64,000 nucleotides of DNA from the NCBI GenBank assembly GCA_937125225.1, contig CAKZLE010000006.1:186001-250000 (forward strand), in the 5' to 3' direction. The notes below the pieces were generated by a model, which made no database searches, was not told the DNA's origin, and worked only from the letters and a program-made list of their open reading frames with translations. A program made the position numbers and the translations under genes. This DNA is from an uncultured Spirochaetia bacterium. GTDB taxonomy: Bacteria; Spirochaetota; Spirochaetia; CAKZLE01. Positions 10,226-13,993 of the stretch are shown piece after piece; position 1 is the first letter of the stretch; each line of letters opens with the position of its first letter.

Positions 10226-10258
10226 ATCCCACAGGGTAGAACCTTGTGGGATTTTTTC
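10226..10258 (+). terminator. Terminator after purB
   Basis: ATCCCACAGG pairs with CCTTGTGGGAT (one bulged base) and is followed by a run of six T. It closes the hpt-purB operon. Confidence 0.85.
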
Positions 10259-10313
10259 TGTTTTCACTTAGTATCATATCGTATATACTTGTAGCATAAG
10301 AGGTACTTTGTAT

Positions 10314-13300
10314 ATGGTAAAACGGTATATGGCGATCTGCCTGCTCATCATGATAGTATTATTCAACTCATGTACTACACTCAGTAAGACCAACGCCCTA
10401 GAAGAGCCTGAAGCCACGGTCGTCGATGATGTCACATCAAGTACAGAAACAGCATCAGAGTTCGATCAGGAAAGAATAGAAGTCGTCACTGAAGAGGAAC
10501 CTAAAGTCATAGAGCCAGTCGAAGAACCGGCAATTACAGAACCTGTAGAAGAACCTACCCCTGAATTGGTTATAGAAGAGCAACCTGAGGAGGAAATTCT
10601 ACCAGTCGAACCTATCCTCGAAATCCCTGTCTTACCACCTCAGAATATCATAGAAGCCATTGAAGCCAATGATCTCCTCCTTGCTGAGAAGTTCATCCTT
10701 CTCGATTCTTCCGTAACAACTCTCACAGATGAACAGGGCAACACCCCTCTTCACTTAGCAGCATCCTTAGCTCAACCCAATATGATCCAACTCCTACTCA
10801 AACATGGTGCTGAACTTTCAACTCAGAATTCTTATGGTAGACTACCAATACATACCGCAGCGGCCCTATCTTTCGAGCTAGCCCACCTCCTGCTGGGGAA
10901 CGGATCACTTCTCTATATCCCGGATGATACCGGTGTGACTGTCCTCGATATGGCATTCTCAAGTGGACCAACTGCAGTCAGCGCCCTTCTAGGAGAGCAG
11001 TTCGTTAACTCACTGGATATGAAAGGGAACTCTCCTCTCCATTTTGCAGCTCAGAGAGGTGAGCTGAACATTGTACGAGAACTCATCGAGTACGGTGCAG
11101 ATATCAACATAACCAATTCAGACCAGATGAGTCCTCTCGATGTAGCTTTTTCTTTCATCGATAGTGATATTCATGTCCAGATAGCTCGCCTACTTATCGA
11201 GAACTATTCCCAGATACCTCAAGACACGAACTTCTATTATGCATATCAGACACTCTCAAGTGATGTGAACATTCGATTCGAGGGAGGGACTACCCCCCTA
11301 CACTTTGCAGCACTATATCATCATCCCGCATTATTACGAACCTTCATCGCAGAACATGCCTATCTTGAGGCACGAGATGAGCAAGAGGACACTCCACTTC
11401 ATATCGCAGTGATCCATAACTATTTCGATATCATGAGACTACTCGTAGATGCAGGTGCTGATGTGGATGCTCGAGATACGAGAAACAATACCCCGTTACA
11501 TCTTGCCGTGACGAATAATACCGATCAACTCATAGCAGACTATCTCCTCAAGAAAGGTGCTGAAGTCGATAGCAAGAACAGTTTTGGAGAGACCCCGTTA
11601 CATAGTGCCATGCCGGCTACTATCGATACAGGATTCGTCTCACTACTGCTCTCCTATGGTGCAGATCCTGACAGCCGGAACACCTCTGGGAATATACCCA
11701 TCATGGCTGCCCTAGCCCAAGATAATAAAACTGCAGTAGACCTTCTCCTTGATAAAGGTACCGATATCTATGCGAGTAACTATCACAGTATCAACCCTCT
11801 GATCAGAGCTCTCATAAAAGGGACTGAGACCATCTCATGGTTCTATCGCCCCTATATGAATCAGACCTCTGATGGAGAGGGGAATTCCCCCCTCCATATA
11901 GCCGTGATGGTAGATGCTACCACTGAGGTCATCGAACAGATCATAACAGCTGAGGCATCATTGGATGAGCGAAATCTCCAAGGAGAGACTCCTCTCCATC
12001 TAGCTGTAGGATATGATTACCCTGAAGCTGCCGGACTCTTGACTGTATCCGGGGCAAATCCTTTCATTAACAATAACAGAGGGAAGTCACCTATCGTTCT
12101 AGCCTTCGATAAGGGAATCGAGTTCACAAGCTTCATCATCAACGAGGCGAACCTGCAGGGCAATGATTCAGAGGGAAACTCTCCTCTCCATCTAGCAGCC
12201 CTCTGGGATTTTCCTGAAATAACCTCATTTCTCATCTCTTCGGGAGCTGCAGTCAACGCCCGAAACACTCAGGGACTCACCCCTATGCATTATGCGGTGA
12301 AGAATAATAGTGTCGCAGTCTGCAGGATCCTTCATGAACATGGGGCAGGGATAGATGCCCGTGACAACTATGGGAACACTCCTCTCCATACCGCAATCTC
12401 CTGGGGTTCATCACAGAGTGCTAAATTACTACTACTCTTGGGGGCGAATGTCGAATTACGGAACCTCAGCGGGAATACTCCTCTCCATACCGCAGCCCTT
12501 CATCAGGATAGTCTTGGAATCAATATGCTCCATGAATACGGTGCATCACTCGAGACTCGAGATAATACCGGAATGACTCCGCTCCTTCTTTCCTCGAGAA
12601 AGAACTACTGGACCATATCACAACTTTTGATCGAACTCGGAGCCGATTACAACACGAGAGATGATAGAGGGAACACCCCTCTTCATGAGGCGGTAAGAAA
12701 CAAGAATAAGAAGACCTGTCAGTTATTGTCTGATAAGGGAGCAGATATCTATGCTGAGAACAGCTATGGGGACACACCCCTGATGATCGCTTTTAAATCC
12801 GGTGTCGAGATCGTGGACTGGTTCATCACCGGACCTATGGTATTCGATAGAGATGATGAGGGGAACACCCCATTACATACCGCTATCAGACTCAACACCT
12901 CTGCAGATGTCATCCTTAGTCTGATTGAGAAAGGAGCTGATATAAACAGCAGGAATAACAAGATCAATACCCCTCTCCATAATGCCTTCCTAGCGAATAA
13001 TAAGAGTGCTGTCATGGTCTTGGTAGAAGCTGGAGCGGATCTGTTCAGTCGAAACGGAGATAGTGAGACTCCTCTTACCATGGCATTCACCCAAGGGCTA
13101 GACGCCCTCTCATGGGTCATCAACAGTGAGAATGTGAATACTACGGATCAATACGGTAATACGGCTCTCCATGCTGCAGCCACTTTTGGCTCCCTTGAGG
13201 CAATAGAGTTCATGCTGAACCTTGGGGCCGACCCTAATCTTACCAACCTCTCCGGCGACTCACCTGCAGAGGTTGCACTCAAGAATGGCCAACTTGAGAT

Positions 13301-13334
13301 CATGAATCGTCTACGAGTGTTCGAGTTAGATTGA
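10314..13334 (+). CDS. Large ankyrin-repeat lipoprotein
   Basis: A 1006-residue protein. The N terminus is a lipoprotein signal (MVKRYMAICLLIMIVL) with lipobox LFNSC, so it should be exported and lipidated. Next is a low-complexity region of about 90 residues rich in Glu, Pro and Val, then about 26 ankyrin repeats (GNTPLHLAA...LL..GAD...RN) that fill the rest. Five repeats are a short degenerate variant with the pattern AF..G......F or SW, each followed by a strong GNSPLH or GNTPLH repeat, giving a higher-order periodicity. The start at 10314 is preferred over an upstream TTG because AGAGG lies nine bases before it. No catalytic domain is seen; a binding or scaffolding role at the cell envelope is an inference. 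Its stop overlaps the HAD gene start. Confidence 0.88.
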   Translation: MVKRYMAICLLIMIVLFNSCTTLSKTNALEEPEATVVDDVTSSTETASEFDQERIEVVTEEEPKVIEPVEEPAITEPVEEPTPELVIEEQPEEEILPVEPILEIPVLPPQNIIEAIEANDLLLAEKFILLDSSVTTLTDEQGNTPLHLAASLAQPNMIQLLLKHGAELSTQNSYGRLPIHTAAALSFELAHLLLGNGSLLYIPDDTGVTVLDMAFSSGPTAVSALLGEQFVNSLDMKGNSPLHFAAQRGELNIVRELIEYGADINITNSDQMSPLDVAFSFIDSDIHVQIARLLIENYSQIPQDTNFYYAYQTLSSDVNIRFEGGTTPLHFAALYHHPALLRTFIAEHAYLEARDEQEDTPLHIAVIHNYFDIMRLLVDAGADVDARDTRNNTPLHLAVTNNTDQLIADYLLKKGAEVDSKNSFGETPLHSAMPATIDTGFVSLLLSYGADPDSRNTSGNIPIMAALAQDNKTAVDLLLDKGTDIYASNYHSINPLIRALIKGTETISWFYRPYMNQTSDGEGNSPLHIAVMVDATTEVIEQIITAEASLDERNLQGETPLHLAVGYDYPEAAGLLTVSGANPFINNNRGKSPIVLAFDKGIEFTSFIINEANLQGNDSEGNSPLHLAALWDFPEITSFLISSGAAVNARNTQGLTPMHYAVKNNSVAVCRILHEHGAGIDARDNYGNTPLHTAISWGSSQSAKLLLLLGANVELRNLSGNTPLHTAALHQDSLGINMLHEYGASLETRDNTGMTPLLLSSRKNYWTISQLLIELGADYNTRDDRGNTPLHEAVRNKNKKTCQLLSDKGADIYAENSYGDTPLMIAFKSGVEIVDWFITGPMVFDRDDEGNTPLHTAIRLNTSADVILSLIEKGADINSRNNKINTPLHNAFLANNKSAVMVLVEAGADLFSRNGDSETPLTMAFTQGLDALSWVINSENVNTTDQYGNTALHAAATFGSLEAIEFMLNLGADPNLTNLSGDSPAEVALKNGQLEIMNRLRVFELD

Positions 13335-13993
13335 TGTATACAGGCTTGATCTTTGATTTTGACGGCACTCTTTATGATGCTAGGAACTTTGGGAAACGAC
13401 TGATCCTTCAGAACCTTAAGATGTACGAGTATGTCAAAGTCCTAAAGAGTATCAGTCGACCACTGGAGACTAAAGTATTTGCTAGTGGTTCTGCATATAA
13501 GATGTTCCTCTTCGAAGCTATGGCGGATGCTCTTAACAAAGCACATCCTGATAAACCTCCGATCAATGCGACCACCATGGGTCACTGGTATCATCATGAA
13601 TACTATCCAGCGATCATTCGATTACTGGAAAAGAGTTATCAGAGTGAACCACAATGTCAGAATATACTTCTTACCTTATCAAGAAGATATCCCCTATCTC
13701 TCTATGCTGATATCGGGGTGATCGATGAGAGACTCCGAGCAGTGGGTCTTCAACCCACCATCTTTGCAAACAGGATGTCGACAGATGAGACCGGGACGGT
13801 AAGACCTGCACCTAAATCATATAAGTCGCTGGCAAAACTCATGAGATCCCCAACCTCCTCAACTTTGGTAATCGGAGATTCTCCGCTAATCGATGGTGAG
13901 AGTGCAAAGGGTGCAGGGATGGAATTCTTCCATATCGATCCCAATGATTTCTCTGGAAGCTGGTCTCGTTTGAAGAAGCTGTTACTGCATTAG
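13334..13993 (+). CDS. HAD-superfamily hydrolase
   Basis: A 219-residue HAD phosphatase. Motif I is FDFDGTLYD with the nucleophile and acid/base aspartates; the C-terminal motif IV region is LVIGDSPLIDGESAKGAGM. The segment between is a helical cap of the HAD_2 type. The start ATG shares one base with the stop of the ankyrin gene (TGATG), so translation is coupled. The stop overlaps the convergent VTT membrane protein gene by four bases. Substrate is unknown; small phosphometabolites are usual. Confidence 0.85.
   Translation: MYTGLIFDFDGTLYDARNFGKRLILQNLKMYEYVKVLKSISRPLETKVFASGSAYKMFLFEAMADALNKAHPDKPPINATTMGHWYHHEYYPAIIRLLEKSYQSEPQCQNILLTLSRRYPLSLYADIGVIDERLRAVGLQPTIFANRMSTDETGTVRPAPKSYKSLAKLMRSPTSSTLVIGDSPLIDGESAKGAGMEFFHIDPNDFSGSWSRLKKLLLH

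Follow-up and report, generated by a model that had tools for sequence, protein, structure and literature searches.

What is a protein of some 1000 residues, built almost wholly of ankyrin repeats and seemingly fitted with a lipid anchor, doing in an uncultured spirochaete, and is it a peculiarity of that one genome or instead a member of something more general? The gene in question lies in a 64,000-nucleotide stretch of DNA, here the window, from an uncultured Spirochaetia bacterium (GenBank assembly GCA_937125225.1, contig CAKZLE010000006.1, positions 186,001 to 250,000 of the forward strand). It occupies 10314-13334 on the plus strand of that window, the strand also of all other window features given below, and encodes 1006 residues from an ATG at 10314, with a TTG at 10308 in frame as well. 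Orthology, in combination with a tree, shows the window protein to be one copy of a vertically inherited family of spirochaete ankyrin proteins, exported as judged from sequence. What the family probably represents is a scaffold of the envelope, and not a curiosity of one species.

A first, sequence-only reading of this gene had described a lipobox, an acidic stalk rich in proline and glutamate, and then about 26 ankyrin units within 900 residues. Its coordinates, frame, lipobox cysteine (Cys20) and stalk are borne out. The predicted signal peptide (10314-10373) carries the lipobox IVLFNSC, with lipidation expected at Cys20, i.e., it has the signal peptide plus lipobox cysteine by which a bacterial lipoprotein is recognized. 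The stalk which follows is 90 residues long (10374-10643; 30% D/E, 14% P). The ankyrin array itself stands as described, but with an exact figure of 27 units, U0-U26, in 896 residues (111-1006; 10644-13331). The protein matches Pfam Ank_2 at E=9.5e-130, and several 33-residue units of helix-turn-helix-hairpin type exceed the Pfam cut-off.

A vertically inherited family with units of fixed length

Among 98 related genomes, 89 hold some match at E <= 0.001, mostly to generic ankyrin, and 23 full or partial orthologues beyond the window's own are found at E <= 4e-94. Searched with a profile, 297 Spirochaetia genomes yield 78 positives at E <= 1e-90, 76 of them with a single match each and the other two with split matches. 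With an orthologue in 78 of 297 genomes, the suggestion that such a scaffold is rare in free-living bacteria does not hold for this family within its class. The Treponemataceae-type family, that is, the family of genome G024, has matches at E <= 1e-60 in 157 of 195 genomes and in 20 of 20 genera; L040 and L082, which are named Treponemataceae loci, fall into the clade of G024. Branching in the tree, which covers 64 orthologues, agrees with taxonomy. The named locus nearest to the window protein, at 62% identity, is that of the metagenome-assembled genome Spirochaetia bacterium Tobar13m-G40.

Unit lengths were counted in the same 64 orthologues, i.e., in 66 less the partial L017 and L024. Five units of the window protein are short, at 31 residues, with a strong unit after each, just as had been read from the sequence. 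These are U3 (residues 207-237; 10932-11024), which has 31 residues in 54 of the 64; U11 (residues 492-522; 11787-11879; SWFY), with 31 residues in 58; U14 (residues 590-620; 12081-12173; SFII), with 31 residues in 54; U21 (residues 819-849; 12768-12860; DWFI), with 30-31 residues in all 64; and U24 (residues 917-947; 13062-13154; SWVI), with 30-31 residues in 44, the U24 part being missing from 17. An SWF/SFI-like core had been ascribed to the short units, and four of the five have it, U3 being the exception. The units right after them begin GN[ST][PA]LH, that is, GNSPLH following U3, U11 and U14, GNTPLH following U21, and GNTALH following U24, such that the GNSPLH or GNTPLH of the sequence-only reading fits four of them. 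Length is fixed as well in the long unit U5 (11127-11285), which has 53 residues in the window protein and 53-54 in 62 orthologues, in U1 (33 residues in 64), in U12 (34 in 59) and in U22 (34 in 63). The window protein has all that defines the family, i.e., a full-length profile match, 31-residue U11, U14 and U21, and a U5 of 53-54 residues.

Spacings of 30-31 residues between anchors amount to 165 of 854 (19%) in 66 family sequences, versus 16 of 472 (3.4%) in 55 unrelated bacterial ankyrin open reading frames (ORFs). A short-module profile, run against 86 unrelated ankyrin ORFs, finds matches of up to 35 bits, the six listed all being ordinary units of 32-33 residues. Short units are foreshadowed, moreover, by the unit ahead of them. 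At one position of the hairpin, where residues are as a rule N, D or otherwise polar, 256 of the 303 cells just ahead of a short unit hold F, Y, W or H, versus 25 of 877 cells of units not preceding one. Before U21 this position has one of these four in 34 of 64 orthologues and Leu or Met in the others.

The short units had been said to recur at regular intervals. They lie instead 8, 3, 7 and 3 units apart, and their spacing therefore is not regular. There is nevertheless periodicity at a lag of ten units, with a five-unit block, U10-U14 (11688-12173), resembling a second copy, U20-U24 (12669-13154). When similarity is averaged by lag, significance is reached neither for the window protein (2833 of 5000 shuffles) nor for the family (406 of 5000). 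This test was replaced by a diagonal block test, chosen after the top pairs had been seen. In a 21-member family profile none of 1000 random unit orders comes up to the observed diagonal, and none of 1000 in which the short units keep their places. Corresponding counts per 1000 are 17 and 73 for the window protein alone and 1 and 47 for the six closest family members. In small, distant subsets the test is weak, with 20 and 78 for a Treponema-like trio, 23 and 22 for L014-16, and 221 and 409 for L022 alone, the best diagonal of which begins one unit later. The self-similarity anticipated above the level of single units is found, that is, as a block in the family profile and not as mean similarity by lag.

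The 1,139,633-bp genome G076 carries, at 903,903-906,506, a full-length orthologue which we take to be T. pallidum TP0835; a literature search under that name found no paper. It resembles the window protein in its U11 and U14 (31 residues), U5 (53) and U12 and U22 (34), and differs from it in U3 (29), U21 and U24 (30), U17 (38) and in a short stalk. A search of the literature on the family as a whole returned no title or abstract opening concerned with it. The excerpted text of PMC5956850 touches on ankyrin-like models in T. pallidum and that of PMC2650404 puts the number of ankyrin genes in Brachyspira at 57; PMC5473847, from the same search, has as its subject a human gene. A mobile or phage origin was considered as well and rejected: tblastn finds matches in 23 phage records, none of them as much as 60% identical, which look like generic ankyrin, with the five listed, all of Wolbachia phage, being 26-32% identical.

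What precedes the ankyrin array is more variable. A lipobox is present in 53 of the 61 orthologues with readable N-termini, a count in which the ambiguous L157 is taken as positive and which was adjusted by hand, as the automatic rule missed L009, L014, L023, L161 and L003 (complete as L032) and as the N-termini of L004-L006 are cut. The eight orthologues without a lipobox fall into three groups of the tree. The stalk, where measured by rule, is 7-45 residues long in 46 of 48 orthologues, the remaining two (f1) having 85 and 90. Long stalks are seen only in the window's own clade, with about 735 residues in L032 (clade f3) and 586 ahead of U0 in L003, a partly cut copy of L032. In L005 and L035 there are about 400 readable stalk residues, rich in RLAEEA repeats and possibly forming a single long helix, and the contig of L006, related to these two, starts within a repeat of that type. 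As lipid anchor and long stalk both vary among orthologues, conservation of the protein implies no surface role, and its anchoring at the surface is a proposal rather than a finding.

Short units and the shape of the solenoid

An AlphaFold model of window residues 105-1006 has a mean predicted local distance difference test score (pLDDT) of 92.7 and a predicted template modelling score (pTM) of 0.61, the latter leaving uncertain the global path and long-range shape of the solenoid. Ordinary units are modelled with helix-turn-helix lengths of 7/3/9, and the short units as more compact, i.e., as helices of 8 + 7 residues (8 + 8 in U3) joined by a turn of a single residue. The compact form recurs at U3 and U11 in a second model, that of a Treponemataceae orthologue (pLDDT 91.1, pTM 0.61). 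Residues ~614-847 of the window model, between U14 and U21, superpose on gankyrin, Notch and DARPin at 1.4-2.6 A, versus 4-35 A for most fits that continue across short units, a poor fit that is confounded with length, as longer solenoid alignments drift anyway. Four fits beginning inside U14 remain at 1.9-2.4 A, omitting about 25-32 residues of range. The best-fitted block of the second model, 504-669, begins right after U14, its other end being set by the length of the matched DARPins. That short units act as breaks in the superhelix, as had been proposed from sequence, is thus supported by the modelled compactness of their helices but is not proven, with the path across the breaks uncertain and the fits dependent on length.

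Positions on the concave face are on average more conserved than those on the back (0.365 versus 0.259), and are so in 22 of 24 units (Wilcoxon p 2e-6), a comparison in which the concave set contains the structural Thr position, which favours its score. Concave conservation is highest in U15, U17, U25 and U19, with Trp631 and Trp697 prominent. Both tryptophans belong to the concave side of the regular block U15-U20 (12174-12767), which is a candidate ligand groove.

Comparison with known ankyrin proteins brings out both likeness and difference. A long, uninterrupted ankyrin solenoid is seen as well in the 24-repeat membrane-binding domain of ankyrin-R and ankyrin-B (8cs9, 4rlv, 7v0x). Segment 379-743 of the window model aligns with 7v0x at Z 32.0 and a root-mean-square deviation (rmsd) of 4.7 over 353 residues, and the model's whole-length superposition on 8cs9 (ankyrin-1) is poor (TM 0.34/0.38, rmsd 34.3). 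Unlike ankyrin-R and ankyrin-B, the window protein would be exported, with a lipobox, and it has fixed 31-residue units. Ankyrin repeats are shared also with Dot/Icm effectors (NCBIfam AnkY, AnkH, AnkG and others), with 305.9 bits to AnkY. The window protein nonetheless scores far under the NCBIfam equivalog cut-offs by which such effectors are recognized (600 for AnkY), and it has a signal peptide.

Promoter, flagella and possible role

In Treponemataceae-type loci a repeated CGATAA motif was noticed between PerR-like genes and the orthologue. Expressed as the pattern T[ATC]AA-N14..16-N[CT]CGATA[ATG] and searched for in the 130 bases upstream, with L003, L005 and L006 (start not readable) and the truncated L004 left out, it is found in 22 of 30 Treponemataceae-type orthologues, 5 of 30 others and 2 of 504 control upstreams; shuffled upstreams give a mean of 0.18 per 30 and a maximum of 2. 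Tighter T[TA]AA forms retain 18, 11 and 7 of the 30, each versus 1 of 504 controls. The pattern resembles the FliA consensus and matches a mapped promoter of T. denticola. That promoter, PflaB2 of flaB2, has TTAA at -35 and CCGATAA at -10 (PMC9481697, which in its excerpted text does not mention ankyrin; PMC11607428, likewise excerpted, came up under sigma-28 as well), and the match counts for a flagellar promoter at the ankyrin gene. Pattern sites precede flagellin genes, too, in G270, G167, G209 and G024 (flaB). In G024 the start of the FlhF gene is some 4 kb, and that of the FliA gene some 7 kb, away from the ankyrin gene; what separates them is pyrG, an aminotransferase gene and two small ORFs.

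Over whole genomes the strict pattern occurs 40, 14, 25, 16, 15 and 0 times in six genomes, versus 17, 4, 10, 6, 8 and 2 times for the reversed pattern. As the latter also is frequent, many whole-genome matches are due to chance. From 110 pattern sites in five genomes, 20 were picked by eye and fetched. HD_5, OmpA, SPOR and NlpC/P60 proteins are encoded behind sigma-28-type sites in Treponemataceae-type genomes (L214, L219, L221, L225, L210).

Of 62 genomes, 54 have matches for both FliF and flagellin and 8, those of the window's clade, have neither; two of the eight are less than 75% complete, with the window genome at 97%. These eight genomes (families f1, f3 and f17) constitute an apparently flagella-less spirochaete lineage. 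The ankyrin gene is kept there all the same, and a promoter of the TTAA/TAAA-N15/16-CCGATAA type is seen in 0 of the 4 orthologues of the clade that are readable.

Taken as a whole, these observations are best explained by a lipid-tethered periplasmic ankyrin scaffold with hinges, expressed alongside flagellar genes in Treponemataceae-type genomes, an explanation which we consider to have an even chance of being right. With a lipid anchor, as predicted in most members, the 900-residue solenoid would be tethered to a membrane, most probably on its periplasmic side. Short units at their fixed positions may serve as built-in hinges dividing the solenoid into rigid blocks, a mechanical role suggested by the models, with the unit ahead of each hinge mostly bearing an aromatic hairpin residue. 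The block U15-U20 would offer its conserved concave groove to a candidate protein partner. In flagellated Treponemataceae-type genomes the gene would be read from a sigma-28 promoter, predicted from sequence, together with the late genes of the flagellum, and in the flagella-less lineage, which kept it, the window gene and its sister are under an apparent housekeeping promoter. A flagellar-type promoter together with retention following flagellar loss favours a role in the periplasm or envelope, i.e., a job not concerned with the flagellum alone. A more specific proposal, though a rather unlikely one, is of a previously undescribed, sigma-28-controlled periplasmic scaffold, the aromatic lock and short-unit hinges of which would let the solenoid wrap, or space out, parts of the compartment that houses the flagella, outside the cell cylinder and beneath the outer membrane, with flagella-less spirochaetes having re-wired the promoter and kept the protein as an envelope skeleton.

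A number of observations weigh against the hinged, flagellum-linked scaffold. Besides the uncertain global path of the models, U14 of the second model (8 + 6 residues, with a two-residue gap) as well as its U21 and U24 differ in shape, and in U6 and U14 it is the back rather than the concave face that is more conserved, quite apart from the advantage conferred by the structural Thr. The lipobox is missing from the three tree groups noted above, and no match at E <= 1e-60 is seen in 38 of the 195 genomes of the G024 family, several of which are single-contig assemblies. As to the promoter, testing of the pattern came after it had caught the eye, and the control ORFs were mechanical ones. The motif precedes just 5 of 26 flagellated orthologues outside of the Treponemataceae-type family, and there is none at the gene in the 1.14-Mb G076, a scan of that whole genome giving 0 matches. 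Of the 20 fetched sites, 3 precede flagellin (G270, G167, G209) and 4 precede no ORF; among listed flagellin upstreams 7 of 34 match, some being double-counted and many belonging to the second gene of a pair.

Various other roles may be considered. A surface-displayed lipoprotein, binding other cells or host molecules with its acidic stalk as a spacer, would suit the window protein's lipobox and 90-residue stalk, and the far longer stalks of f3 (L032, and the RLAEEA-rich L005) as well. That stalk, however, is short in nearly all orthologues measured, three tree groups are without a lipobox, and the concave face is conserved rather than hypervariable, leaving surface display unlikely. Distinctly unlikely is a part in peroxide defence, such as is played by the periplasmic AnkB of Pseudomonas, Campylobacter Cj1386 and the ankyrin (LIC12033) of Leptospira, with the Leptospira PerR-regulated ank-katE operon as precedent (PMC7567364, excerpted text). 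Likeness here consists of being bacterial ankyrins and of a PerR-like neighbour at some Treponemataceae-type loci. A Fur-family gene, of one sequence cluster, lies immediately upstream of the ankyrin gene and in the same orientation in L040 and in 10 of the 28 f24 loci fetched. These 11 rows are spread through a 23-row clade of the tree, the outer neighbour beyond the Fur-family gene varies (L137-L176, L040), and the two Fur-family genes scanned of the eleven are most like PerR, albeit below cut-off (108 and 111 of 180 bits). Rubrerythrin-like genes are upstream in L144, L175 and L040 (one scanned, below cut-off), as is a desulfoferrodoxin-like gene in L147 (144.0 of 146.9 bits). Such adjacency leaves a stress-defence role some probability. 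No neighbour of these kinds, though, is beside the ankyrin gene in the window, with its purB and HAD-family genes, or in the other clades fetched; 9 of the 11 Fur-neighbour loci have the sigma-28-like motif upstream of the ankyrin gene; and no catalase is among the neighbours scanned, the window gene included. The peroxide ankyrins known so far are far shorter proteins, encoded beside catalase.

Purine and pyrimidine genes recur as neighbours in several unrelated arrangements, which might make of the protein a partner in nucleotide salvage. Besides purB in the window's clade, with hpt and purA before it (by eye), a purB-like gene and guaB are downstream in L149; adenosine deaminase, TK-like, deoB-type and uridine kinase genes, and deoC (named by eye), are in f26 and f12; pyrG is in g25; and pyrE is in L082. 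This category nonetheless was chosen after the data had been seen, many loci have no such neighbour, a strong terminator parts purB from the ankyrin gene in the window, and the ankyrin product would be exported whereas salvage enzymes are cytosolic, all told a very improbable role. That the higher-order pattern reflects instead recent tandem amplification in the window genome, or an artefact of reading, is scarcely credible. The by-lag test on the window protein alone, not being significant, would agree with it, but recent amplification is ruled out by the same unit lengths at the same positions across 64 orthologues, with members of alignment A1 down to 30% identity with the window protein.

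The envelope scaffold, if such it is, matters in three respects. A gene that is mostly single-copy, kept even in a 1.14-Mb genome, deeply fixed in architecture and, in many relatives, has a predicted flagellar promoter suggests a part of the spirochaete envelope that is as yet unstudied. Whatever the protein does apart from motility, the window lineage, being apparently without flagella, offers a natural test of it. Lastly, short unit and preceding aromatic together constitute a concrete sequence rule for the placement of hinges in ankyrin solenoids.

The locus in the window

Upstream of the ankyrin gene is purB, as identified by Pfam, itself preceded by hpt, phosphoribosyltransferase and purA-like genes, these named by eye from their sequences. 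A predicted intrinsic terminator with a 12-bp stem (10226-10252) lies between purB and the ankyrin gene, and has by far the longest stem of the 3 terminator-like sites in the region, versus 2.4 expected. It is followed by a weak sigma-70-like promoter, TTTTCA-17-TATACT (10261-10289), an assignment to be read against 3 promoter-like matches in the region and a shuffle mean of 6.2. The stretch ATCGTATATACTTG, around the second hexamer, is common to the window and its sister orthologue L002, and TCGTATATACT of the same promoter region is common also to L011. Terminator and promoter-like site would thus set the ankyrin gene apart from purB. Downstream, the start codon of an HAD-family hydrolase gene (13334-13993) overlaps the ankyrin stop codon (TGATG). 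This hydrolase is distantly like YjjG-type nucleotidases, with a score under the cut-off. The neighbours of the ankyrin gene in the window, that is, are purB, the HAD hydrolase gene and a gene for a VTT-domain protein.

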